From NCBI GenBank assembly GCA_015501595.1, contig JADNRX010000011.1, positions 62,001-126,000 on the forward strand: a DNA stretch of 64,000 nucleotides, given 5' to 3'. The notes under the pieces were generated by a model, which saw only the letters and a program-made list of their open reading frames with translations, was not told where the DNA came from and did no database searches. Positions 4,907 to 59,430 of this stretch are shown here, one piece after another. The position numbers and the translations under genes are program-made. The stretch comes from Hymenopellis radicata. Taxonomy: Eukaryota; Basidiomycota; Agaricomycetes; Agaricales; Physalacriaceae. Each line of letters opens with the position of its first letter. The first letter of the stretch is position 1.

Positions 4907-5129
4907 GTTGTCGTGTTGAACGTTTGGATCAAAGCACTGTACCTGTGGGGCGTGGGAATGCGGTCCTGATTTCTTCTTTCGGCATGCTCCGGGTAAGGGT
5001 CTTGGGGGACAGCTTGTTTACCTTCAGTACAGTCCTTCCAACATTCAATATGCCGTACTTGGCTCCCCTTGTTGGTCTACCTCGCCCTCTACGTCCTCTT
5101 TGACAGTCAAGCCTCCATCTGCCCCCATG

Positions 5130-5135
5130 CACGTG
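5130..5135. promoter_or_regulatory. CACGTG element (possible PHO box)
   Basis: A palindromic CACGTG followed by TG lies about 210 bp before the phosphate transporter start codon. CACGTG is the core recognised by Pho4-type bHLH regulators of phosphate starvation genes. The role is inferred from position and target; a 6-bp site can occur by chance. Confidence 0.4.
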
Positions 5136-5286
5136 TGATTGCGATCCTGGTGTGATATCCGTTTCGTTCATCGTGTTTAAAAATAGAACTCCTCCAAATG
5201 ATCGTGTGCGCAGTGTATGATTGGCTGAAGGGGGCACGAACGTGCAGACCCCATTCAAGGGTTTTAGTAGGGTGATAGTTACAGCT

Positions 5287-5294
5287 TATATAAA
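5287..5294 (+). promoter_or_regulatory. TATA box of the phosphate transporter gene
   Basis: TATATAAA stands 49 bp before the ATG at 5343, a reasonable distance for a fungal gene with a short leader. Confidence 0.5.
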
Positions 5295-5342
5295 GTCGGG
5301 GACAGTCTCTCTCCGTTTCTCATCCCTGCAGTTAACCTCCCG

Positions 5343-7579
5343 ATGTCTTTGGAAAAAGGTACCAGCATTGCCTCTGGCAACAAGGTCACCTCGTCTGGGT
5401 ATGTCCTCGACGAGCGTCGCCGTGCTGCTCTGGCCGAGGTTGATAATGCCAAGTTCTCGTAAGTCGCCTTGTTGATGTTAGTATTTTTGGTCGTCTGACA
5501 ACCCCTCAAGTTGGTTCCATGTCAAGGTGTGCGCCGTCGCAGGCGTAGGTTTCTTCACCGATGCGTAAGTCACCTTCCTTGGATCTCTGGCAGCGTCTTA
5601 CAGTCTCTCAGCTACGATATCTTCGCCATCAATATTGCCTCTACAATGTTGGGCTATGTGTACGGAAGCAGTACGTACCATTAGGAGTCCCTCATCCAAC
5701 TACTCACCTCTTTTCAGAACAGGTCCTTTCTGACAACCAGGACCTTGGCGTCAAGGTTGCTACCCCCGTCGGTACTCTCGTTGGTCAACTACTCTTCGGT
5801 TGGCTTGCCGATGTCCTTGGTCGTAAACGCATGTGTAAGTTTGCCCGCTCTTCCCGGTGGCGTACTTCTGATCCACTTCTAGACGGTGTTGAACTGATGA
5901 TTATCATTTTGGGTACTTTCGGTCAGGCATTGTCGGGAAGCGGATTTGCCGTCAACATTATTGGGTGAGCCTCTCTTCGTGTTGCACATCAATTTAGACA
6001 ACTTACACTTCGAAGGGTTCTCATAGTATGGCGCTTCATAATGGGCGTTGGCATAGGCGGTGACTATCCGTGGGTTTAAATCGTTATTCTAAAGTCAATA
6101 TGCTTATCATTTCTATGACAGGCTATCAGTGGTTGAAATCGTTATTCTAAAGTCAATATGCTCATCATTTCTATGACAGGCTATCATCTCCTCGGAATTT
6201 GCTGCCACTAAGATCCGTGGGCGAATGATGACAGCTGTATTCGCCTCCCAAGGATGGGGAAACTTTTGTGAGTGGACTCGAATTGGTCAGATAATCTATT
6301 CGTCCTAACCGTCTACATAGCGGCTGCCCTTGTCGGGCTTATTGTCACGGTTGCGTACAAGAGCGCCGTCCTTGGAGACACCCCTCCCCACTACAATCAT
6401 GTCGACTACATGTGGCGTCTGCTCATCGGTCTTGGTGCCGTTCCGGGAGTTATAGCTCTGTACTTCCGTCTCACCATTCCCGAAACTCCACGTTTCACCA
6501 TGGATATCGAACGCAACCTGCAGGCGGCTACTGCCGATATCGAGAACGTTCTCACCACCGGCAAGGCTGTGCGCGACCCCGACGCTGTTGTTGAACGCAC
6601 TCCCGCACCCAAAGCCAGCTGGGCCGACTTCCGTCGTCACTTTGGACAGTGGAAGAACATGAAGGTTCTCATTGGTACCTCATATTCTTGGTTCGCGCTC
6701 GACGTAAGTCTCGCCGATCATTTCCACGCCTCGACTGAGCCTCTCTTCTCAAGATTGCCTTCTACGGTCTAGGACTGAACTCCAGTATTATCCTCACCGC
6801 CATCGGATTCGGCAAGCCTGTCACCACTGGATCGCAGGGTGTCTACGACAACTTGCATAACATCTGCGTTGGGAACTTGATTCTCTCCGTGGCCGGTCTT
6901 ATTCCCGGATACTGGGTTTCATTCCTGTTCGTCGACTCGTGGGGCCGCAAGCCCATTCAGCTCATGGGTTTCATCATGCTCACCATCCTCTTCGTCATTA
7001 TGGGTTAGTGAGTCTCCCTTTTACCTTGACACTTTCTCACTATTGTGATAGGCTTTGGTTACGATAAACTCACGGCCACCGAGTCCGCGAAGGATGCTTT
7101 CGTGTTCCTTTACTGTCTGGCCAATTTCTTCCAGAACTTTGGCCCTAACACCACGACTTTCATCATTCCTGGCGAAGTCTTCCCCACGCGGTACCGTTCG
7201 ACCGCTCATGGTATATCCGCTGCCAGCGGTAAGCTTGGTGCCATCGTCGCTCAGGTCGGATTCGCTCGCCTGAGGAACATTGGTGGCACGAATGCCTTCG
7301 TAAAGCACATGTCAGTACTCTTCCATAACTGTGGCGCAGCGCGTGGACTGATGTATACCTCGCAGTCTCGAAATATTTGCTCTGTTCATGTTGACTGGTA
7401 TCTTCTCGACACTGTTGCTTCCTGAGACCAAGGGCAAGTCTTTGGAGGAATTGTCCAACGAAGACCAAGACCATTTCATTGCCAGTACGTTCTTTCCCTA
7501 CTATCACCCGTCGTTTCATCTGTCTCATGCCTTCTTAGGTGCCGCTGGCGCAAGCAAACGTCCCGACACTTCGGATTGA
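5343..7579 (+). CDS. Pho84-type inorganic phosphate:H+ symporter (MFS)
   Basis: Thirteen exons give a full-length MFS phosphate permease of plasma-membrane type. The start MSLEKGTS is followed by VAGVGFFTDAYDIFAINI (helix 1), LADVLGRKRM (motif A), the PHS signature region GGDYPLSAIISSEFA, a central loop with PPHYNHVDYMWR, then LFVDSWGRKPIQ, the late-helix run NFGPNTTTFIIPGEVFPTR, and a C-terminal LPETKGKSLEEL. These are hallmarks of the high-affinity Pho84 branch, which imports phosphate with protons. Exons, in order: 5343-5458, 5511-5564, 5612-5670, 5718-5834, 5883-5964, 6016-6069, 6122-6128, 6180-6266, 6321-6703, 6754-7003, 7052-7310, 7366-7484, 7539-7579. The seventh exon is only 7 nt and lies between two copies of one intron. 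A TATA box and a CACGTG upstream fit phosphate-responsive control, which is an inference. Confidence 0.95.
6070..6179 (+). repeat. tandemly duplicated intron around a 7-nt exon
   Basis: Intron copy 1 (6070-6121, 52 nt) and intron copy 2 (6129-6179, 51 nt) match except near the 5' end and one interior C/T change. Each begins GTGG and ends ATGACAG. Between them is GCTATCA (6122-6128), which reappears at the start of the next exon. Removing both introns yields DYPLSAIISSEF, the expected family sequence. Confidence 0.9.
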
Positions 7580-8784
7580 TTATTTCTCTCTTTTAACTCT
7601 CGTATCGTATACATGCGCAATATCAATCAGCACCAAAAAAGTCTCCTGGCGGACGAACATTGTACTAATACTATCCATCTAGTTTAACAATGTATGATGA
7701 TGATCATGATATTTAATCGAAGCTTTCACGTGTTTACTTCAATATTAGGCTATAGAGTATGCCTAGGGAGACTAGTAACTAACGGCGTTCTGGTTTAACG
7801 TCCGATTTGAGCCTGTTCATAGTTTCTCGTTGGCAGTGCAGGCACCTTTGTGTAGCTCAATCAGATCAGGCTACTAATAGTAGCCTGCGTACTTACTCGT
7901 GTGGAAGCTAGTCAAAGCATTTCTTCTGAACGGCGTCACTTCTACAGTGTGACGCAAAGAGAGATAGCGGGGGATGCGCTGCGCTGCTACGCACCTACAA
8001 ACAACAGCGGATGCAGACCTTATCGGCAGATAGTGTGACAGAAAGTCGCCCGCGTGTTATGGTCGGGAGAACATGCGTTCAAAACGCGGTCAAGAACGGC
8101 ATTTTCCGGGCGCGAACCTTGAGCAGAACGTGACCGTGAGAAAGGTAGTAACCTCAGTTGGTGATTCGCACAACTCGTTGAGATTTTTACATTCCGAACA
8201 TTCCGAATACTTGCTTATACGCATTCGACCACACTTCAAGCTCGTATCACTGGAAGCTGCCTCCGAGACACCGCTATTCGAAAGACCGCGTTACCCGCGT
8301 GCTATCTTCTTATCAATATCATGCCAGCTATCTATTTCCGCCCGCGAAAACGGTATTGTCAATGGACTGAGCGACTCAGGGATACAGAAAGGAGTTGGAG
8401 CTTCCTCGTATACTATAGCCTGATACGGCTCTAGCCTTGGAGCTTCTTCGCCGTGGCACATCGCGTTGATCCCACTTGTTCAGAGAATGCGCACTTGTGT
8501 CGCCGATGGGCTTATTCAGAGAAGGTCAGTTGAATTATACGTGTTACCATCACTGTGGACTCAATGTTCTCAAGGTTTGTTTCGAACTGTTGCGTTGAAT
8601 AACTTGATAAGTACTTGTCCGACTCACGTTGCGCGCCCACAATCAGGCACACCGATGCTTCCACGGTGTAGACGGCATCATGACGAGATAAGGATCTCTA
8701 TCAGAACCCACACAAGAGCGCCGGGGCAGAGTTCTAATATACTACTTTCACCCACGATCTTAGCCGAGGGCTCGACTTGCCCCA
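7580..8784. other. intergenic region
   Basis: This is the gap between the phosphate transporter and the APC permease. Short ORFs (for example 8073-8423) lack family motifs and splice logic. No repeat or RNA gene is recognisable. Confidence 0.5.
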
Positions 8785-21825: not shown

Positions 21826-22851
21826 TCAAGGGGGAGGTGTGCTAGAAGATGTCGCAGAACGTACATCGCGTCCGACCTGTTCGGCCTCGATGGCGGCGAT
21901 GAATGCCTGACCAATGTCCGCCACATCGTCTGTACATTCAGCCAGATAAGCCTCCTTAAACGCGACATAAAGAGGATCCGAGGGTCGAGGACGAGGATAA
22001 TAAGGGTCATTCGCGAAAAATGCTGACACAAGCTCATCGATCCTTTCGAGAGTTTTGGGCCAGTACCGCACCTGGTTGGGTACCATCTCAGAGGATATAC
22101 TCATAGGGAGTATGCCACGTACCTGATTGAAATCAATCACGAAAAAGGTGAAACCAGCTCCTCCATCGCCACCAAGGATAAACTCAACATCCCTAGCATC
22201 GATGGATGCCCTGTAATGGAGACGTGCTAACATTTCCGCTATGCCCTGCGCCACCTCTGTCGCCGAAGGAAGTTCCGGGAAAATGGAAACCAAGGTATTG
22301 TAGCGACCTTCGTCAAGAGGAAAGTTTAGGGTATTATAGAATCTGGAGATGCGGGTGCCTAAGGTCTTGCCGAAATAAAGGCGACAGATCACGGGACCCG
22401 CCTCGATAGTAGAGGTTGGCGGAATATAGAGAGCGCGAAGCCTCGCACGGGCGTTCGGAGGTAATGCATGTATCCGATCCATGGCGTACGTGGCAGAATG
22501 AAAGATCAGAAGCTCCTCCTCAGCAACGACGGGGCGCGCAGGACGACGGCGCTGGGATGACGGCGGGCTAGGGGAGGACATAGAGTACCCAGTCGAATCA
22601 TGGGCAGGGTCATTGAACGCTAACGGGCGTGGAATACCGAAAAAAGAGTCCGTATTGCAGCGGCGATATACCGCGCGGAGGGCGTCATACTCTGAGCGAA
22701 GGGCGGCGCCGTCAGAACTGCGAATTTGCTTGTACGCGACACGTCCGCCATTGATGACATATATCTCTGCAAAACTTCCAGCACCGATGCAGATAGGGTG
22801 TGACATCAAATCGTAGGTAGTGGTGGTGGTGGAGAGTTCCTGTTGGGCCAC
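21826..22851 (-). CDS. DUF3669 (kinase-like fold) protein, copy A
   Basis: A single-exon gene of 341 residues. The N-lobe shows a Gly-rich loop ICIGAGSFAEIYVI and a VAIK-like lysine in VAYKQIRSSDG. The C-terminal part holds EGRYNTLVSIFPELPS, EMLARLHYRASIDARDVEF, FFVIDFNQVRGI (DFN in place of the kinase DFG) and YYPRPRPSDPLYVAFKEAYL, the DUF3669 signature, ending DIGQAFIAAIEAEQ. This family is abundant in Ascomycota and Basidiomycota and has no proven function; whether it binds nucleotide is unknown. It is arranged head to head with a paralogue 171 bp away, and their 3' portions are identical over 234 bp. No intron, signal peptide or membrane span is seen. Confidence 0.85.
   Translation of the reverse strand: MAQQELSTTTTTYDLMSHPICIGAGSFAEIYVINGGRVAYKQIRSSDGAALRSEYDALRAVYRRCNTDSFFGIPRPLAFNDPAHDSTGYSMSSPSPPSSQRRRPARPVVAEEELLIFHSATYAMDRIHALPPNARARLRALYIPPTSTIEAGPVICRLYFGKTLGTRISRFYNTLNFPLDEGRYNTLVSIFPELPSATEVAQGIAEMLARLHYRASIDARDVEFILGGDGGAGFTFFVIDFNQVRGILPMSISSEMVPNQVRYWPKTLERIDELVSAFFANDPYYPRPRPSDPLYVAFKEAYLAECTDDVADIGQAFIAAIEAEQVGRDVRSATSSSTPPP
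21847..22080 (-). repeat. arm 1 of an identical 234-bp inverted tract in the DUF3669 pair
   Basis: The reverse complement of 21847-22080 is identical base for base to 23905-24138. The tract ends at a C/A difference on one side and a 6-nt indel on the other. Confidence 0.9.
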
Positions 22852-23022
22852 GTGTGCATATCGTACACGCGCGTCCAGGACATTGACAAGAGGACGATTG
22901 CCTCCCGCACTCGCTCACAGTAGGCAGACGATCTTGATGATGATCGATGATCATTGATGACGAGTTGCCAGAACTCCATTGGTCGGAGTTTGAATTTGCC
23001 ACTTCGCCAAAACCGTTTCAAC
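22852..23022. promoter_or_regulatory. short bidirectional promoter of the DUF3669 pair
   Basis: Only 171 bp separate the two divergent start codons at 22851 and 23023, so both promoters must share this stretch. No clear TATA box or named factor site was recognised. Confidence 0.5.
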
Positions 23023-24186
23023 ATGTCGACGCTAACGATGTCGACACATACAGAGTCTGACCCACAGGTATCGACAGAGGCGCCTTCCATCGGTGCTGGC
23101 GGTGCAGCAGAGATGTATGTGCTCACCAAAGGACCTATCCCATCCAACCGAAACTCCGACGGTGCTGCCTTTCGTTGTGAGGAGCCCGCCGAGCCTATCT
23201 GCATCGGTGCTGGAAGTTTTGCAGAGATATATGTCATCAGTGGAGGCCCTATTGCATATAAGCAAATGTTCGGCTCTGACGGTGCTGCCCTGCGCTTTGA
23301 GTATGACGCTTTGAGCGTTATTTATCAACGCTGCCACGACTCTCAATCATTCTTCGCTATTCCTCGACCCTTCGCATTCAATGATCCCTCTGGACTGATT
23401 GCATTTCATACAACATCCCCCATCCCGCTGCACCGCCGACCTCGTCCTGTGCGCCCCATCGTCAATCAAGCGCTTCTGTCTATCTTCAGGTCACCTGTAT
23501 ATGCCATGGATCGGGTGCAAGCCTTACCTCCGAGGGCCAGTGCTAAACTTACTGCTCTATATTTTCCACGTACTGTCGAGACGGGCCCTCTGCTCTGTCG
23601 CCTCTACTTCGGCAAGACTTTCACAGGCGCCCGCATCCCCAGCTTCTACAACACCCAAAATTTTCCTCTTGACGAAGGTCGCTACAATACCTTGGCTTCT
23701 CTTTTCCCGAGACTTCCTTCGGTGACAGAGGTGGTGCAGGGTATGGCGGAAATGTTAGCACGTCTCCATTACAGGGCATCCATGGATGCTAGGGATGTTG
23801 AGTTTGTCCTTGGTGGCGATGGAGGGTCTGGTTTCACCTTTTTCGTGATTGATTTCAATCAAGTACGTGGCATACTCCCTATGAATATATTCTCTGAGAT
23901 GGTCCCCAACCAGGTGCGGTACTGGCCCAAAACTCTCGAAAGGATCGATGAGCTTGTGTCAGCATTTTTCGCGAATGACCCTTATTATCCTCGTCCTCGA
24001 CCCTCGGATCCTCTTTATGTCGCGTTTAAGGAGGCTTATCTGGCTGAATGTACAGACGATGTGGCGGACATTGGTCAGGCATTCATCGCCGCCATCGAGG
24101 CCGAACAGGTCGGACGCGATGTACGTTCTGCGACATCTGCAAGTTCTAGCACACCTCCCCTTGATACTGTTGAGGGTGGCATGTGA
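23023..24186 (+). CDS. DUF3669 (kinase-like fold) protein, copy B, with duplicated N-lobe segment
   Basis: A single-exon gene of about 387 residues, homologous to copy A across its whole length. The start at 23023 (MSTLTMSTHTESD) is preferred; an in-frame Met at 22954 would run into the shared promoter. It carries the motif series ICIGAGSFAEIYVI, IAYKQMFGSDGAALRFEYDA, EMLARLHYRASMDARDVEF, FFVIDFNQVRGI and RPRPSDPLYVAFKEAYLAEC. Unlike copy A, a degenerate extra copy of the Gly-loop segment (SIGAGGAAEMYVL, then SDGAAFRCE) precedes the main one and lacks the lysine position. The final stretch matches copy A exactly at DNA level, while the middle differs at many positions. The C-terminus is slightly longer (LDTVEGGM). 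Confidence 0.85.
   Translation: MSTLTMSTHTESDPQVSTEAPSIGAGGAAEMYVLTKGPIPSNRNSDGAAFRCEEPAEPICIGAGSFAEIYVISGGPIAYKQMFGSDGAALRFEYDALSVIYQRCHDSQSFFAIPRPFAFNDPSGLIAFHTTSPIPLHRRPRPVRPIVNQALLSIFRSPVYAMDRVQALPPRASAKLTALYFPRTVETGPLLCRLYFGKTFTGARIPSFYNTQNFPLDEGRYNTLASLFPRLPSVTEVVQGMAEMLARLHYRASMDARDVEFVLGGDGGSGFTFFVIDFNQVRGILPMNIFSEMVPNQVRYWPKTLERIDELVSAFFANDPYYPRPRPSDPLYVAFKEAYLAECTDDVADIGQAFIAAIEAEQVGRDVRSATSASSSTPPLDTVEGGM
23083..23301 (+). repeat. internal tandem duplication in DUF3669 copy B
   Basis: Unit 1 (23083-23181) and unit 2 (23194-23301) align as diverged copies of the Gly-loop coding segment; both contain CATCGGTGCTGG, GCAGAGAT and GACGGTGCTGCC. Copy A has only one unit. Confidence 0.75.
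23905..24138 (+). repeat. arm 2 of the identical 234-bp inverted tract
   Basis: This is the partner of 21847-22080. It covers codons for the second half of the DUF3669 domain, and synonymous sites are identical too. Confidence 0.9.
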
Positions 24187-38293: not shown

Positions 38294-38400
38294 AGTGCGG
38301 TGTAAGTGCTTTGTGTAGAAACACCGCGATTCCTCAGAGATACATCACAACGTTTTGAGCAGAAAACTTGATGTTACCTGGTGTCGACGAAACGTTAACT

Positions 38401-38561
38401 TTCACTATAATACAGATGTCCGTTCCCATTCACTCGTGCGTGACCAGTGTTCCTTTACTTGCTGTTCAACCATTTACCAAGCCCGAGGCTCGTATAGATT
38501 TTATCCAGGCCCTATTGTATGAGTTAGACACGGGACAAGTGCAAAGAAGATGTCGACGTAC
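38401..38561 (+). repeat. 161-bp direct repeat, copy 1 (first exon of the oxygenase pseudogene)
   Basis: It matches 42698-42858 with about eight substitutions. It starts just before ATACAGATGTCCG and ends at CGACGTAC; flanks on both sides differ from copy 2. Confidence 0.9.
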
Positions 38562-42525: not shown

Positions 42526-42697
42526 ATTGAGCTGCGGTATTCCTCTATGTGTCGTACTATAACATAGACGAGGTCGACACCCTCCGACCCTTTTAGTATA
42601 CTTGCCTTAAAGTCAGTGCTCACACCCTCTAGATTACACGTTGTCATTATCGTTCTTTCCAATCGGAACCTTCATCATGCGGTTACAAGTAACAAAT

Positions 42698-42858
42698 TCC
42701 ACTAAAATACAGATGTCCGTTCCCATTCAGTCGTGCGTGACCAGTGCTCCTTTACTTGCTGTTCATCCATTTACCAAGCCCGAGGCTCGTATAGATTTTA
42801 TCCAGGCCCTATTGTATGAGTTGGACACAGGACAAGTGCAAAGAAGATGTCGACGTAC
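42698..42858 (+). repeat. 161-bp direct repeat, copy 2 (inserted at the DUF6987 3' end)
   Basis: About 95% identical to 38401-38561. It still encodes the oxygenase N-terminus on the plus strand (MSVPIQSCVTSAPLL). On the minus strand it supplies the last DUF6987 codons and the stop at 42763. Confidence 0.9.
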
Positions 42859-49784: not shown

Positions 49785-51060
49785 ATGCAAAGCGACGACG
49801 TGATCTGGTCTGTCATTAACACTCAGTTCTGCTCTTACAAAGTCAAGTAAGATGCCTTTTTACGCTCCGCGTGCATCTCCTAACAAATCACTCAGAACAA
49901 CCACCCAAAATTTCTGCCGAAATGAATACAATGTAACAGGTCTCTGCAACAGACAGTCTTGCCCGCTCGCCAACTCTAGATATGCCACCATACGCGAAAA
50001 AGAGGGTCCGTATGACTGACTACCAAATCGACTGGCTTGTATTGACGGCATACAGGTGTCCTCTATCTCTATGTGAAGACTATAGAGCGCGCCCATACGC
50101 CTGCGCATATGTGGGAGAAGATAAAACTATCCAGCAACTATACCAAAGCATTGGAACAGGCGCGTTCTCACTATGCCTATTCAAGACTTCTCTAATCGTT
50201 CATTAGATCGACGCCGAACTAATACACTGGCCCAATTTCACCATTCACAAATGCAAACAGCGTCTCACGAAAATAACCCAATACCTCATCAAGATGAGGC
50301 GCTTACAGCTACGAGAACAGTACGTTCAACTACCTTGCACCGCGCATCAGCTCACAAGTTTCGTTAGGCCAAAACTAATCGGGGTCAAGAAAAAACTCGA
50401 TCGCCGTGAAGCTGTTCGCGAACGCAAGGCCCTCTCTGCTGCCCACCTCGAACGTTCCATCGAAAAGGAGCTCATCGAAAGATTGAAATCCAAGGCTTAC
50501 GGTGATGCACCTCTAAACGTCAACGAAAGTGTCTGGCAAGCTGTTCTGGATCGCGAAAAGAAGGGACAAACATCAGAGAAAGCCCTCGAGGACATGATGG
50601 ACGACGAAACTGACGAAGAGGACGAGGAAGAGCTCGAGGCCGAGATGGAGAACGAGTGGGACGACCGGGAGTTTGTCAGTGATATCAGCGGGGACGAAGA
50701 TGAGGATGATGATGGGCTGAGTGATTTAGAAGAAGCTGCGGTGAGTGTTCTTGACTTGCTTTCTCTCGTACATCTGTTCTTATCGCTTTGCAGGATGAGG
50801 CGTCTGGCGATGAAGATGACGAGGACTCAGACTCAGACGATTCTCCCGAAAACGCGCCAAAATCATCACTCGGAAAGCGGAAAATGCCTCCACCAACAAA
50901 ACCCGCTCGCAAGCGGCCAGACAAGAAGACAAAAAGTACGTTCAACGCGCGTTTCGTCTTCGATTACACGAGCTCATTCTTGTCTACAGAAGGTCCGCGG
51001 GTGGAGGTGGAGTACGAGCAAGAAATGGAGAGCGCGCCGTTCTCGATGGCCAACTGGTGA
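49785..51060 (+). CDS. MAK16: ribosome biogenesis protein Mak16
   Basis: A highly conserved nucleolar 60S-maturation factor. The start [20 protein letters not shown] joins [20 protein letters not shown] and [16 protein letters not shown]; the [20 protein letters not shown] run is the Mak16 zinc-like signature. Then come [38 protein letters not shown] and [20 protein letters not shown], with the conserved block [22 protein letters not shown]. The C-terminal part is very acidic ([16 protein letters not shown]) and then Lys-rich with [18 protein letters not shown]. The last exon ends [11 protein letters not shown]. At least six introns, all canonical. Expected to act in nucleolar pre-60S particles with Rpf1 and Nsa1. 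Confidence 0.95.
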
Positions 51061-51580
51061 CGAGCTACCACCAACCATGTGCTTCAGTATGTTTTGGTAT
51101 CACAGTTATACAGCGACAGCTTTTGCCTCGATCATTCATCACAATATCAATGCGTCGGCAAATGCTTGGACTTGAAACCGATTACTTGACTGAGGTGATG
51201 CCGTAGAACTAGAGGTGTGGATCAGACGTGGCCCAGAAAATTGAGCAATGAACTGTATGCATAAGTAGTGTATCAGTCGTACATATTGATTGCTAGCTGG
51301 TGTTACACGTTGATAGGAAGATGAGAAAACGTAGACATGCACCTGAAGCCAAAAGTCATAAAAAGGAGTAAAAAGGATATACAAAACCGAATAACGAAGG
51401 AGAGTGGACTATATATATGGGAGGATGCCTTGATAATTATAGTGAAATTGAGCAGAGTACTCATGCCTTTTCTATGCGATCTCGATTTCCGCCGTGGGTA
51501 TCTATCGAATACATACCACAGAGTCGGTAATAGGAGGATCTCGCGACAGCGAAAGAGCAACTGCCGCGAACGAAGCAATG
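51061..51580. other. intergenic region between convergent genes
   Basis: The stops of MAK16 and the LAMMER kinase face each other over about 520 bp. No gene or repeat is recognised. Confidence 0.5.
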
Positions 51581-53544
51581 CTATATCTCTTCCGGTATGT
51601 TCAGAGAAAAGTAGGGATGGTTTAGCGCTTCCCGGACTGTAATACGCTGATTAGGATCAAAAGCAAGGAGCTTCTGTACCAGGTTCAGAAACTGTATATT
51701 GGCCCGGTCAGTCTGCGGTATGACATCCTGTGAAAGCTGAGTAAGGCGAACGTCCGCAACAACGGGAGTTGAGTACTGACCGCAAGTGCTCTGGTGGAGC
51801 GAACATCCTTTTTACTCTGCCGGTGGCTTTAGGTTTCGGCCAGTCCAATTTGCATCCCTCTTTGAAGAACTCTGGTTTCGTGCGGGCGCCTAATCGGGCG
51901 AATCGCTCGGCATCTTGCCCATGACCGCCTCCATCATGGCTAGGTGCTCCAAGTTGTCATGAGTCTGAAAGAGGGCAATGCCGGTGAAGAACTCGACCAG
52001 AATACACCCAAGGGAGTATGCATCGCAAGGATAGGACCAGCCCAGTCCTAAAGAGGAAGATTAGCATTCTGTCAATCTGGGATAAAGAATCACGGACCTA
52101 GAATAATTTCTGGTGCCCGGTAATGACGTGTGGAAACGACCGTTGAGTGATACTCAGACTCAAAGGTGGCCGAGCCGAAGTCAATAAGACGAATGTCTGT
52201 TGATTGTAAAATACGCTTGAGCTTCGGTGGGGCATTTCGCTGAGAACGGTCGGTGTCAATAACGGAACTAGAGAAGAAACGAAGAGCATACCTTTCCAGG
52301 AACAGGAACACTGGCGGTCTTGTAATCATTGTGAACAAGTAAGATGTTCTCTGGTTTCAAGTCGGTATGAACGAGCTTGAGATCATGTAAAACTGGTGAT
52401 GGGAGCTTAGTATTGATAACGAAGCCGTGAGGAAACTTACAGGCAACGCTCCCAAGCAGTTGGCGCGCAAATGATTGTATCTGGTGTCGCGGAAAGGGCG
52501 CAAAATCGTTATCCTTCAAAAAGTCGTACACACACATCCCCAGAAGTTCGGTCACTAAACATATGTGGTTTTTGTGATCAAACCAGTGCACTAGGTGAAC
52601 ACATTTGCTGGAAAGAGATGAGATGAGATGAGATACGGCATGGTGTACGTACTGGCGATTGAGGGGATCGCGTTCTTTCAGTCGTTGTAGCACACGCACT
52701 TCGATTTTGCTGGCGTCGCGGTACTTCTGGATGGCACGGATAATCTTGATGGCCACTCTTGTGTTGGTCTCTGTGTCTATGGCTTCGACGACCTTGCCGA
52801 AGGTTCCTTGGCCGAGTAGTTTTACGGTGCGATCTGTGGCCAAGGATCAGGGTACGACCACGACGATCGGAAAAGGACTCACAGCGCCGGTGGATCAGGT
52901 CATTAGGGACAATGATATAGTGCCCTTCCTTGTCGTCGCAAGAAACTGCGCTCTTGGAGTTCTGGGAGTGAAAAAAACACCATTAACACGTCATGTTAAG
53001 AAAGGTTTCGATTGGAACAACTTACATCGTCAGACGTGGCAACGGTCCTGCTGTCCCATGCCTTGGACTGAGAAGAGGGTACAGCATGATGGGTGCTCAA
53101 AAGAGGCTTCTTTCCAGGTAGCGCACGGACCTCCTCATGGTCCCGTTTCCGTTTCTTGGCTGGGGGAGCCAGTATGGTAGACGATGAACTCGCCGATAGT
53201 GCTTGTGCCTCGGCAGCAGCTCGTGCCCGTGTGCGAATAGGTGCAGAATATAGCGGCGGCTGGTAGGATGCAGAATAACCGCCGTTGAGGGAGGCGGCGG
53301 GCGACATGGTTGGTGGAGGTGTATCCTCGATGATGATAACGTCGCGGAGACGACCGTCATTGTCGACCTCCTGGACTTCGCTATAGCTGATGGTGACCTG
53401 TTGCGCACGTTTTCGCTTGCGAGTGCCCACTGGCGGCGTAGGCAGGATACTGGGACCCGCAGTGGACGAACTGACGCCATTGGGTGGCTGGCGTGAATAC
53501 TGTGAGAGCATCTGCGGCTGCATCGAGTGCACGGCAGCCTGCAT
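51581..53544 (-). CDS. LAMMER (CLK-type) dual-specificity protein kinase, two apparent base deletions
   Basis: The N-terminal 170 residues are low-complexity with nuclear-type basic patches ([20 protein letters not shown]). The kinase domain has [46 protein letters not shown], the DFG motif [27 protein letters not shown] and the name-giving [20 protein letters not shown] kinases phosphorylate SR proteins and regulate splicing. The reading frame breaks twice near the end: at 51907/51908 (GKMP to [14 protein letters not shown], one G missing) and in the A5 run at 51809-51813 (GRV to [10 protein letters not shown], one A missing). Adding one base at each site restores conserved sequence to the end at LNIPEEI. 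Both are homopolymer positions, so sequencing error is likely. The start at 53544 is the first ATG in frame after a stop. Confidence 0.85.
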
Positions 53545-54261
53545 CGTCTGTACGGTGGTGAACGACGTGGTGGTAACGGTGAGAGTGGGCGTCAGCACTC
53601 CGAGCACCGATACAAGTAATCTGCTCGGAATGTACCCTGTTTGTCACCAGGCAAGTCGAACCAAACAACGTGTGGCTTTAGCTCCTACAGCCACTTGTTC
53701 CCAGCACTGCTCCTTCCTTTTCTAGTCTATATCGACGCTGTATACTGTAGACTATCTAGCAGGACGTGTTTTTCTTTAATTTTTCTGTTTTCTGCGGTCC
53801 ACTGCTTGCTAGAACCTGCCGGTACAGCTTTCCTGCCCGGTCTAGGCAGCACGCGCCGTCTGCCGGCTTTTGGCATTCTCTCCAACGCCTACGCACCACC
53901 CTTCACCGTGCGCCAACGTCACCTTTTGAATGACATCGATAGCGTGGATATCCGCCCATCAGTGTCTGACTCTCCCGGCTGTGCTGTAGCTGCCCATTAC
54001 CACGTAACTCGCCGTGCTCTCTTTCATTTACGGTGCGCTCCGCAGACCCCCGGCTCTCTATATCGATAGCCAGGGCAAAGGGACCGCGCTTCCCCTTGAA
54101 GACACGTTTGAAATCGAGATGAGGTAGAATCCGTCCGATCCAGGCAATGCGCCACCGGCTCAGTTGGTGACTCTAATACCTGGCTACACCGAGCTACATT
54201 CATGCGTCCTGAACTATGTTACAACAAACTATGGTACAGTTTTTCTTTGGCTGGTACAGAT
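53545..54261. other. intergenic region
   Basis: 5' flank of the kinase gene and 3' flank of the AIF-like gene. A plus-strand ORF at 53641-54069 has no family features and is not called. Confidence 0.45.
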
Positions 54262-56760
54262 TTACACGGAAACCGTTTGCTGGGCAGCTACCGAATTTTG
54301 ACTCGAAATGTCAATCGATAATGGGTCCTGCACAAAAATTGGTCAGGATGGGACGACACACGGGACCAATGGGAACATACCAGGCCTCCTCGGAGTTCCT
54401 CAGGCGAAGGCATAATCCCCAATCTCAACAATTGGGCACACTTGCTCATCACAGGGTCATTTTGCATGCTGCGAACAATGGTTATCAGGAGGCTCATATA
54501 ATTTCGGGCGTCCACACCTTGCGATGGCGATGACACGATTGTTCTGGACATAATACGCGACAAACTGATGTGGACCGTGTCAGACAAAACCCTGTGGTCC
54601 GACACAAACATTTACCTTGAGCTTTTCTGCATCACCGGTAATGATGACATCTTCAAAGCCGACACCGTAGCCGCAATAGCGCAATTGCTGTCCCTCTGAC
54701 GTTGCGACCGGCTTAGTGATGTATAAAGCCCGGAACAAACAACTTACGCGCACTCCAAAAGACCGGCACTTTCTTGTACACTTTGGGAATGCCGGCAATG
54801 GACTGGCCAAGCGCGCGTCCTTGGTTTGATGCAACCTGGAAAACGAGTTGGAGAACGGCCTGAGACAATAGCTGTTAATCTTACATTCCAGTGCTCGATT
54901 CTTGCGTAACCCTGCCCAGCAAAAAGTGGTGGTGAAGCAATGTCCCCTGCAGCATTGGTAAACAACGATTTTGCCTTCGAGACTGAGCACGAACCAATTG
55001 CGTACAAACCCTTGACCGTGTTGGGCACATTGAGCACCCTCATGTATTCGTCCACCTTTACGCCACCATCTTTCTCGAGCTCGACGTGGCCTTTGAGCAA
55101 CTCGGTTGCAGGGGCAACACCAACTCCCATAATGACAAAGTCGGCTGGTATGGTCTCGCCATTCACCACCACGCCGGTCGCTAGCTTGTCATTTTCTTCA
55201 CTGACCACGATCTTTTCGACCTTGACTTGCATGTGGAACTTGATCCCTTGAGACTCGTGGTACTTGGGTCAACGCCATGAGCTGAAGATGCATATCTCAA
55301 GGGAGCGATCGAACCTTCATGAGCGCCTGTCCAACTTCTTTTCCCAGGACGGCTTGGAACGGAACTTCTTCCATTCCAATAACGTCGATTGAAGCGAGTT
55401 CACGTTTACCCATAGCGACCGCGAGTTCCATGCTTATGAACGAGGTGCCGAGAAGCACTGCACGTTTGCCCTTTTGTGCAGCTACAGAGTGACGATGAGC
55501 CTTCATTCACGACGAGAGACCAGATACCGACCTGCATCTACTACCTTGGCGTCTTCGATGCCTCTGAATGTGTACACATTCTCGCAGTCTGCTCCAGGGA
55601 TAGGCAGACGACGAGGAGTGGATCCAGTTGCTAGTACCAACTTATCGTATGTTAGAGCATCCTTGCCGTCGATGACGACCTTTCTGTTAACCAGATCCAA
55701 AGACGTAACGGTCTATTTCAGAGTTAGCTAGACATTATTGAAGTAGATGATATCTTACGACGCCGGTGCGAAGGTTAGTGCCGAATTTAATCTTCATTTC
55801 AGCGGCACTTTTCCATTCCACCTTTGAGGCGTCAGTAATCAATGCCTTGCTTAGTTTGGTCCTGGACAAATAATCAACGAGAAGGAACCCGCTGAACCTA
55901 GCTAATGACTGACCTGTCAATGGGTGCATGCGGTTCTCGGGAGAGCATAGTGATTGGGTATTTATAACCATTCTAATTAACGTCAGAAAAGTAAATAGCT
56001 TGCAAGGCGTAAACCAGCTCACTTCTCGCAAACTTTCCATGACATGGAAGGCCCCGGCGCCGCCACCGACTATGATGACGCCTTTGCCGACAGCATCGAA
56101 GCCAGTAGTCGACAACTTCGGGGGACGGGACTTGTTTGCTGGAAGGGTGTATTCTGGATGGGCGGTTACATGTATCTTACCATCTGCCACGTGAGCTTTG
56201 AAAGAATGAATGCCAGCGGGGGCAGGTGCATCCTCTGAAGGTGACGTTCAGAACAGTGCATCACATAACTCTGCGGTAGCACCGTACCAATGTCACCGTT
56301 GCAGACGTTGAAACAGGCTGTCCAAAGTGCGTCAGGCTGTGTCAATGATGAACACGTTACACTATATACCTCCATGCCATGGACTAGATAAGCATTAGAC
56401 ATAGAGAAGGGCATGAATAATGGCGTAACTAACCAGGTAACCTGTCCATCGTGGCTAAGGACACCTTTGGCCAGCGGGGCACCATAGTGGGTGCAGAATG
56501 CGCTGGTTGCGTGTATTTGGTCGCCCAGTCGTGCGAGCAAAACCTTTCCTTGCTCAAAAGCAACTTCTTTCCTATTTCTGGTGTAAGAAGGGGACAATCT
56601 GCGTCTCTTCGGAGAAACGAGCACACATTTCGCCATCTTTGAGCTCAGACTCGTCCAAAACAGGAATCGACTTGGCGTGGGCCATTCTTCGTATGCTCTG
56701 GTAGGTATGGAGGCGAGTAAGACAAGCTGTGAAAGGCGATAAGGCAAGACGTAAAGACAT
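54262..56760 (-). CDS. Rieske-type apoptosis-inducing factor (AIFM3-like NAD(P)H oxidoreductase)
   Basis: The start at 56760 gives MSLRLALSPFTACLTRLHTY, basic and without acids, fitting a mitochondrial presequence; an alternative Met at 56685 begins MAHAKSIPVLDESEL. The Rieske domain has the first ligand pair in AFCTHYGAPLAKG and the second in CPWHGACFNV, created by splicing a 14-nt exon. The flavin domain follows: GVIIVGGGAGAFHVME (dinucleotide fold), DRTKLSKAL, LVLATGSTPRRLPIPG, the NAD-binding AVLLGTSFISMELAVAMG, VIMGVGVAPATELL and GLYAIGDIALF. The C-terminus has FVAYYVQNNRVIAIA and DPVMSKCAQLLRLGIMPSPEEL. The protein should transfer electrons from NAD(P)H via FAD to a 2Fe-2S centre. Many short introns; no disruption. 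Confidence 0.9.
56370..56383 (-). other. 14-nt microexon of the AIF-like gene
   Basis: TCCATGGCATGGAG lies between a TAG acceptor and a GTATAT donor. With its neighbours it creates CPWHGA, the second Rieske ligand pair. Confidence 0.8.
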
Positions 56761-57047
56761 TTCCAGGAAACCACCTACCAAGTTATAAGACAGTGTCCAA
56801 TAAGAGTGGCTGAATTGGTCAGCGACATCGCGATCAGTCGATGTCGTATTTACTTGCTGTTGTTGACATCCGCGGGTAACCGTCTTCTTTTCCCTGGTAC
56901 AAATTTAAAGGCGTGTTACCCGCGACAGTGCGAGAGATGCTCATCTCCGAGTCTCCTGTTCGTCTGCCCCGGGTGTCCGGTCCGGCTCACCCCAGTCACC
57001 GACGCGTCGCGTGCCATCACGTGAATGTCACTCTTTCCTTAACCACC
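56761..57047. promoter_or_regulatory. shared upstream region of the AIF-like and polymerase eta genes
   Basis: The two genes diverge with 287 bp between their start codons, so promoters overlap here. No clear TATA box was found. Confidence 0.4.
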
Positions 57048-59430
57048 ATGTCCGGTTCCCCTGTCAAGCCTTGGAAGGGCAAAGCGAAAGCTGCGGACAC
57101 CGACTTTGATGATCTGGATCCAGTGATTACATACCGCCAGCTCTATTCTCAGACTTTGGGCGTCCGGGATCCTCTCCGTGTTATTGCTCTCTGCGACAGT
57201 GATGCCTTTTACGCAGCGTGCGAAATGGTTCGGCTCGGAGTAACTGACCAACCTCTTGTGGTACTGCAATGGGAATCAATTATTGCGGTAAATTACCCTG
57301 CCCGTAAATTCGGCATCTCTCGGATGGACAAGATCAAGGACGCGAAAGCACGATGCCCAGAGCTGATGGTTATCCATGTCGCCACGTACAAAGAGGGCGA
57401 AAAAGAGCCTGGCTACTGGGAAAATGTCGACTCCAGAACGCACAAGGTACCGTCCCGGCCGGTACCTCTCGAGACTTCGTGGGAGTGATTGGGATTATTC
57501 CAGGTCTCACTTGATTATTACCGCAGAGAAAGTATGAAGATCCTGGGGATGTTCAAGGAAATGCTTCTAGACGCCGAAATAGGTACGAGAATATGGGTTT
57601 GTGGCATCTCTTTCTGATTTATCCAAGAAAAGGCATCTATTGATGAAGCTTTCATTGATTTCACAAAACCTGTTCGCGCAATTCTTTTACAGCGATATCC
57701 ATATCTTGCCGAGCTACCGAAGGACGCGCCCAATGGCATGGACACGGCACTTCCGCCCCCGCCACAAATTTCGTGGGACAACCTTGGCTTTCTTATACCT
57801 GTCGATACAAGTCCAAGTAATGACACCGACACGAATAGCACCGTGCAACCGGATCACCCATGCACATGGCACGACGTTGCCCTCGCCATTGCTGCTCAAC
57901 TGATGCACGACGTCAGAGAGGCAGTCAGGACAAAACTCGGCTATACGCTTTCCGCTGTATGTGACCAAGTCATGCTCGCAATCAATCTTCTTCATAATAT
58001 CAATGTACTTCTCAGGGCATCGCACGGAACAAGTTTCTGGCCAAGGTACGGAAGCCGTCGTCGACCGCCCAACCATAGACTGACGTCGTTTCCAGCTGAG
58101 TGCATCATATCGTAAACCAAACAGTCAAGTTAGTCCATCATCTCTCTGTCCGCGTCAAAGGAAATTCAAGTGAGCTGGCTGTAGAGCATCTTGCGTAATT
58201 CTGCCATACCAAACTATCTTAAGCCCATGGCCTTTCAGAAGGTGTTTATCAATCTCATGATCCCGCGTGTAACCTTGACATGCAAATGTAGATCCGTTTC
58301 CTAGGTGGCAAACTCGGAGACGCCTTAGCAAAAGAATATGATGTATCCAATGTGGAGGACCTACTGTATGGACTTTCTTCTACATAATTTTTCCATCTCA
58401 TGACCATCCTCCAGCTCCGTCAGCTTAGGCATGTGCGGTTCTGATCCTCGCCCAATTCTTTCTTAGCCACGTTTCCTGTTTTAGAAGAAATGCAACAGAA
58501 GTTTGGCGAGGGCGCCATTTGGGTCTACGAGATTCTCCGGTGAGATCTTCGTTCATTGATGTTCGACATGTTCTCACAGATTGTCAGCGGGATTGACCGA
58601 ACGGAAGTATTCAATTAATGTTCGTCTACTTGTCCCTTCTTTCTGAGCCGGAATACAGTCAAGGCAAAGTCGGCAGTCAACAAGAGCATGCTCGCGTCGA
58701 AGAATCTCCCCCAGCCTATCACGAAAGCCTCTGAAGGACATCATTGGATCCGAGTCCTTGCCGCTGAGCTCGCACTTCGACTGAAAGACGCGCGAGAGGC
58801 CAATCCAACCTCTGGCCAAGACACTGGTTCTCCACGCTCGGAAAGGTCAGTAGTTACAAGTCCTTACGCTCCCGCATCCCATTGACCTTACATTTCACAG
58901 GCTATGAAGCTTCGAGGTCTAAACAGGCAGCTTTTCCGTTCAATCGCGACTTCAATGTAGACGTGATTGCCGCGGCAGGCGACAAGCTTTGGAAGGACCT
59001 AGTCGGCAGCGCTACAACAATGAAAGTGACCAGCGTACAGTTGGCGTTTACCGGGATAGAGACGGCCGAGTCGGGGCTGCAGAGCATTGCTGGGTTTCTC
59101 GGAACAAAGCGCACGAGGGAAGAAGACGGTGCTGACTCGGACGCAAATGACGCGAAGAAGGTTTTCTTCGTTTGTTCTCGATGTAACAAGGAGGTCAGGC
59201 TCCCAACTTCTTCAATCTCTGGCGACGAGACAGCAGATGATGCTGCGTTGGAGGAGATGAAGATGGAGCACAGTGATTGGCACTTTGCTCAAGATCTGAG
59301 CAAAGAGGCCGACGACCCAGCTACTCCTCGCGAACCGCTGAAAGAGCCTGTCAAGAAAAAGAAACGTGTCAAGGAGCCACCAAAAAAGCAAAGAGGGTAT
59401 CGAGAGATTTTTTACGAAGCGGTAGCTTAG
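57048..59430 (+). CDS. DNA polymerase eta (Rad30-type, Y family)
   Basis: Start MSGSPVKPWKGKAKAAD. The palm begins VIALCDSDAFYAACEMVRLG, with the two metal-binding Asp residues, then VVLQWESIIAVNYPARKFGI. The second catalytic motif is EKASIDEAFIDFTKPV. Fingers and thumb pieces follow: GIARNKFLAKLSASYRKPN, ILRNSAIPNYLKPMAFQK, IRFLGGKLGDALAKEYDVSN and EGAIWVYEILRGIDRTEV. The little finger has KNLPQPITKASEGHHWIRVL. The C-terminus carries a UBZ ubiquitin-binding finger (FFVCSRCNKEVRL with EHSDWHFAQDL) and ends RGYREIFYEAVA, which resembles a PCNA-binding PIP box with loose spacing. It bypasses UV photoproducts. Introns are many and short; the frame is intact. Confidence 0.9.

Follow-up and report, generated by a model that had tools for sequence, protein, structure and literature searches.

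Near-identical introns paired around 7- and 8-nt exons at one motif of two phosphate-transporter paralogues in Hymenopellis radicata

We find that a phosphate-transporter gene of the basidiomycete Hymenopellis radicata (g1) carries two adjacent, near-identical introns enclosing an exon of only seven nucleotides, and that a second pair with the same intron core lies at the same GGDYP motif in a distant paralogue (g2), where it encloses a different exon of 8 nt (TCCGCTAG). Our favoured explanation, which we consider probable, is that one spliceosomal intron was copied recently and seamlessly into a short stretch of the two paralogues, with four insertions in all. Gene g1 lies within a 64,000-nt stretch of contig JADNRX010000011.1 (hereafter the window), and the features discussed below are listed in Table 1. 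Its product resembles solved phosphate transporters, with similarity over the full length and the GGDYP motif present, features by which we class it as a PHS phosphate:H+ symporter, and our gene model is 100% identical to the deposited protein P0001 (542 aa).

Table 1 Gene g1 and the features surrounding its intron pair (positions within the window)
Feature	Position	Strand	Characteristics
PHS-family phosphate:H+ symporter gene g1, Hymenopellis radicata	5343..7579	+	542 aa/codons; 12 introns in model
Exon with end GGTGACTATCC (VLIVWRFIMGVGIGGDYP)	6016..6069	+	
Intron 6	6070..6121	+	52 nt; donor GTGGGT; CTTAT branch-like site 15 nt before end; 44-nt core 6078-6121
Micro-exon GCTATCA	6122..6128	+	7 nt; required by the frame; used in deposited P0001
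Intron 7	6129..6179	+	51 nt; weak donor GTGGTT; CTCAT branch-like site; 44-nt core 6136-6179
Downstream exon, start GCTATCATCTCC (AIISSEF...)	6180..6267	+	

A preliminary description of this locus had noted near-identical introns of 51 and 52 nt flanking GCTATCA, differing mainly at their 5' ends and by one interior C/T change, and had regarded the event as young. Our comparison agrees on each of these points: positions 6073-6128 are repeated directly at 6131-6186 (56 nt, 96% identity), introns 6 and 7 differ by a single T/C in their last 44 nt, their 5' parts (8 and 7 nt, respectively) are separated by an edit distance of 2, and two near-identical, recent introns are supported. Tandem Repeats Finder (TRF) reports the pair as an array of period 58 and score 218, the sole array scoring at least 30 within 5000-8000; over the whole window it finds four arrays scoring at least 50, the other three having units of 15, 16 and 51 nt. 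The proposal that GCTATCA direct repeats mark the borders of the event, by contrast, is not supported. GCTATCA occurs only at 6122 and 6180, the left border reads ACTATCC, and the doubled GCTATCA supplies the codons for L-S-A-I; the repeat has no counterpart in g2, and ACTATCC and both copies of GCTATCA are native codons.

Splicing of both introns with recognition of the 7-nt exon, as previously suggested, yields GGDYPLSAIISSEF and is the only one of five translated g1 splice outcomes that keeps an open frame, the other four (loss of the exon, or retention of either intron or of both) each meeting a premature stop. Support for this splicing comes from the frame and, indirectly, from the deposited gene model; the H. 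radicata genome paper, whose genome we take to be the assembly analysed here, states in its available text only in general terms that RNA-seq improved the annotation (PMC8480192). A nested twin intron (stwintron) was considered and rejected, given that a coding exon needed for the frame separates the two introns. The description's further claim that splicing restores an invariant motif stands in part. The motif is indeed restored, and the distance from GGDYP to SEF is constant in 120/120 homologues among the matches listed (the g1 protein itself included), of which 117 carry the g1-clade motif GGDYPLSAxISSEF; the residues between GGDYP and SEF are not strictly invariant, however, reading LSAVIS in 84 of these homologues, LSATIS in 18, LSAIIS in 15 and otherwise in 3. 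No Mucidula-named g1 orthologue appears among the 120 matches listed (two lists), in which many rows are nameless.

The paralogue g2 lies on the minus strand of contig C552, between positions 143000 and 152000, and is deposited as P0121, the two deposited proteins being 36% identical. Its two core copies are 60 nt apart, and removal of both copies and of the next intron (g2i9), with the 8-nt exon kept, restores the g2-clade motif as GGDYPMSASITSDRAN, whereas skipping of that exon leads to a stop. Among the matches listed, 117/120 g2 homologues carry GGDYPMSA or GGDYPMSS; two of the remaining three fall outside the searched pattern, and the third is the deposited H. radicata g2 model itself. 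The orthologue from Mucidula mucida (P0122) reads MSSSITSDRAN, with the motif GGDYPMSSSITSDR. The deposited g2 model omits the 8-nt exon yet stays open through one long intron (GGDYPM-RRLYRSSTFKL-DRAN), so that P0121 reads GGDYPMRRLYRSSTFKLDRAN where nearly all listed clade members have one of the two clade motifs. Because it skips the small exon, this deposited route speaks against splicing of the 8-nt exon, unless the model is itself at fault, and the deposited g2 model is perhaps wrong around the small exon. In comparison with Mucidula and Desarmillaria proteins, g2 also seems to lack one base within a run of C near TGSLSP/DNC, which our own and the deposited models alike pass through an unusual donor (GTTCAG); in view of this apparent one-base shift, g2 may be decaying or misassembled. 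We also compared g2i9 with the core, as the two share AATCGTTAT at the same offset, and rejected it as a relative, the similarity not being significant (global p 0.36, local p 0.02, 27 introns compared).

A BLAST-type search of the 75.5-Mb assembly detected four copies of the 44-nt core, two in g1 and two in g2, and the same four places were returned by three search patterns 20, 23 and 21 nt long when as many as 3 mismatches were allowed; as DNA searches of an assembly, these give lower bounds. One core pattern gave two extra matches with 3 mismatches, at which the core is not continued, and reversed-pattern controls for the three core patterns gave 1, 0 and 2 matches. The detected copies are confined to two genes of one family. 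All are introns of 51-56 nt, and in 4/4 copies GT-AG ends are combined with a YTNAY site (CTTAT or CTCAT) 15 nt before the end, so that by sequence features all four classify as U2-type spliceosomal introns. Between copies, the core shows 0-2 mismatches in 44 nt and the 5' parts differ by edit distances of 2-7, the 3' 44 nt being near-constant up to the acceptor and the 5' 7-12 nt ragged. Despite the low identity of the two proteins, the 44-nt core of g1 intron 6 is the same as that of the second g2 intron of the pair, and the 5' parts of these two introns differ by an edit distance of 2. Counted from the GAC of the motif, the insertion points fall at nt 8 and 15 in g1 (phases 2/0) and at nt 12 and 20 in g2 (phases 0/2). 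Exons of both genes are uninterrupted once the introns are removed, a pattern of seamless whole-intron insertion in which the 5' ends vary between copies.

Neither of the two g1 introns has a stable fold (z 0.96 and 1.11), no target-site duplication is visible by eye at g2 and the GCTATCA of g1 is native coding sequence by homology, no Rfam family was found within 5300-7700 at E values up to 1, and the core patterns had no exact match in viral_contigs or prokaryotic genome_contigs. Among the open-licence papers listed in literature searches, titles and opening lines of abstracts yielded no published case of such a pair.

Ten further transporter-like loci were inspected, and the motif was found in two of them (C584 and C525), both of which read GGDYPTSSVITSEF with no intron there. 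Protein P0020, from C584 or C525, is 80% identical to g1, and both loci are closer to g1 than g2 is. As controls for repeated introns, the assembly was searched with g1 (3501 nt), g2 (2801 nt) and window 50000-58000. Beyond themselves and each other's pair, the g1 and g2 queries matched only C584 and C525 (69%, window 6320-7476), and these are paralogue matches spanning some introns. C525 seems to be one base short relative to C584 in the motif-bearing exon, and in a further locus, C485, just 56 nt separate transporter fragments corresponding to residues 47-116 and to residues 207-259, so that the motif region is missing; both C525 and C485 are perhaps decaying paralogues.

Other repeats within the window were recorded alongside these searches. 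Window 54937-58000 is 98% identical to C60:12428-15492 (the query ending at 58000), perhaps the other haplotype of a dikaryon, and the assembly search with g1 found no comparable haplotype partner for the transporter gene. An inverted stretch of 519 nt at 95% identity (21842-22360 versus 23625-24143) is common to two divergent open frames, and the region 21829-24183 has the appearance of a gene recently duplicated head to head. A direct repeat of 165 nt at 95% (38397-38561 and 42694-42858) is separated by 4.3 kb.

Short introns are recognised across the intron, and splicing of both pairs would proceed by intron definition, each donor pairing with its nearest acceptor and the introns being removed one after another. 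A G at donor position +5 is present in 25/27 other introns of g1 and g2 and is missing from the donors of g1 intron 7 and of g2i7 (GTGAAA); splicing at these donors may therefore be inefficient, and some unproductive RNA is predicted.

In the explanation we favour, the intron would have been copied to two points in each gene with the exons left unconverted. By a rough argument, four random insertions at one motif are ruled out, and something guided them to one gene family; indeed, the copying seems to have been targeted and not random, because the pairs sit at the same motif in two distant paralogues and were detected nowhere else. The most likely mechanism would have the excised intron insert directly into the gene being transcribed, in a manner resembling reverse splicing, and nearly as likely would be repair of a break templated by an intron-bearing paralogue, with short switching tracts. 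These two jointly carry most of the weight, and we make no firm choice between them. Reverse splicing leaves the 7- and 8-nt spacings and the ragged 5' ends unaccounted for, and to our knowledge sequence direction is not known for it. Neighbouring introns have been kept on both sides of the comparison (g1i5, 54 nt upstream; g2i9, 11 nt downstream), and any cDNA tract must therefore end within 54 and 11 nt, respectively, unless g2i9 is younger. A review of gain mechanisms allows for partial recombination that leaves neighbouring introns in place (PMC3443670).

A more specific and more tentative proposal, possible rather than probable, is a homing-like gain, in which one intron would have inserted itself repeatedly and seamlessly within the ~13 nt that encode the same motif across family members, the resulting pairs giving rise to micro-exons. 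If true, this would amount to sequence-directed intron gain, for which we know of no spliceosomal mechanism.

Taken as an explanation in its own right, break repair at the motif would have an intron-bearing paralogue serve as template, so that the intron is copied without exons and with ragged 5' joins, repeatedly at the same weak spot. This would explain why the paralogue was chosen, why the positions are offset, why the 5' parts vary while the 3' 44 nt stay constant, and why the neighbouring introns were kept. It would, however, require two round trips per gene, each back to the exact base, and no direct trace of a break was found; we regard it as somewhat doubtful in this form. In intron transfer between paralogues (PMC3443670), too, a near-identical intron occurs in two paralogues. 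Recombination between paralogues would be expected to keep the position of the intron and to carry exon sequence with it, yet neither is found in g1 and g2, where the positions are nt 8/15 versus 12/20.

The preliminary description had read the locus as a simple local duplication of an intron. Such an event is insufficient, because it could explain a second copy within one gene and not a second locus, here a paralogue of low identity on another contig with a different small exon and no border repeat. An extended version, which we judge unlikely, has a local tandem duplication arise in one gene by slippage or unequal exchange, the pair then moving to the paralogue by ectopic recombination and the splice sites shifting later. 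In its favour, adjacent near-identical introns do occur within one gene, those of g1 are alike at the 5' end too, the cores are spaced similarly (14 nt apart in g1 and 16 nt in g2), and a BLAST match between the two loci, which takes in the upstream exon, extends over 161/171 nt at 79%. Nevertheless, the exon enclosed by the copies codes, in g1 as in g2, for the motif typical of the respective clade, insertion positions and phases differ between the genes, no exon conversion was found by eye, and no duplicated exonic part accompanies the introns; duplication of an intron plus 7 nt would, moreover, lengthen the protein, against the constant spacing in all listed homologues. A related case is the repeat expansion of Cryptococcus CNN00420 (PMC2395259), where (near-)identical introns in one basidiomycete gene are attributed to duplication at the DNA level. 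Those introns lie inside a repeat expanding within a single gene, whereas the coding sequence of H. radicata is not lengthened and a divergent paralogue bears the pair too.

We consider it very unlikely that the copies are a small family of introner-like elements (ILEs) clustered by chance. Near-identical introns, seamless in coding sequence, would fit such a family, and fungal ILE insertions no more than 15 bp from other intron positions have been described (PMC4457414); yet the copies detected number only four and are confined to two genes of the same family, the g1 introns have no stable fold, no target duplication is seen at g2, and by a rough argument the probability of chance clustering this tight is negligible. 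The ILEs of Dothideomycetes (PMC4457414) are similar in their recent seamless gain, near-identity and proximity to other intron positions, but occur in hundreds of copies in unrelated genes, with pairs 145-626 bp apart as compared with 7 or 8 nt here. Introners of DNA-transposon type are flanked at each copy by a target-site duplication of 3-9 bp (PMC9860276), which is apparent neither at g1 nor, by eye, at g2. Sister (stw)introns of Hypoxylaceae (PMC8469720) likewise proliferate seamlessly at low copy number without target duplication, and intron-free paralogues exist for 17/33 of their hosting genes; these, however, have strong terminal inverted repeats, lie at seemingly random sites and are nested, in contrast to the fold-free g1 introns, which lie at one motif and are not nested. 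The H. radicata copies are not a typical introner family, and the basidiomycete amylase intron gain, as far as its available text describes it, has no bearing on it (PMC3584928).

Least probable of all is that the introns are old and common to both genes, their core being preserved by a function such as controlled inclusion of the micro-exon while the 5' ends and the exons drift. The core is nearly unchanged between differing flanks, and splicing could act as a switch, given that the g1 frame is lost whenever the exon is skipped or an intron retained; against this reading, C584 and C525 lack the introns despite being nearer to g1 than g2 is, the positions differ by 4-5 nt, and there is neither an Rfam match nor a stable fold.

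The origin of new introns and the choice of their sites remain under discussion (PMC3443670). Four near-identical introns in two paralogues, together with two intron-free sister genes, present the states with and without the intron inside one genome, and make directed gain and paralogue-templated repair testable against each other, for example in 18 resequenced H. radicata strains (PMC10847261). The two pairs also offer a clean test case for how short-intron splicing handles exons of 7 and 8 nt between near-identical introns.
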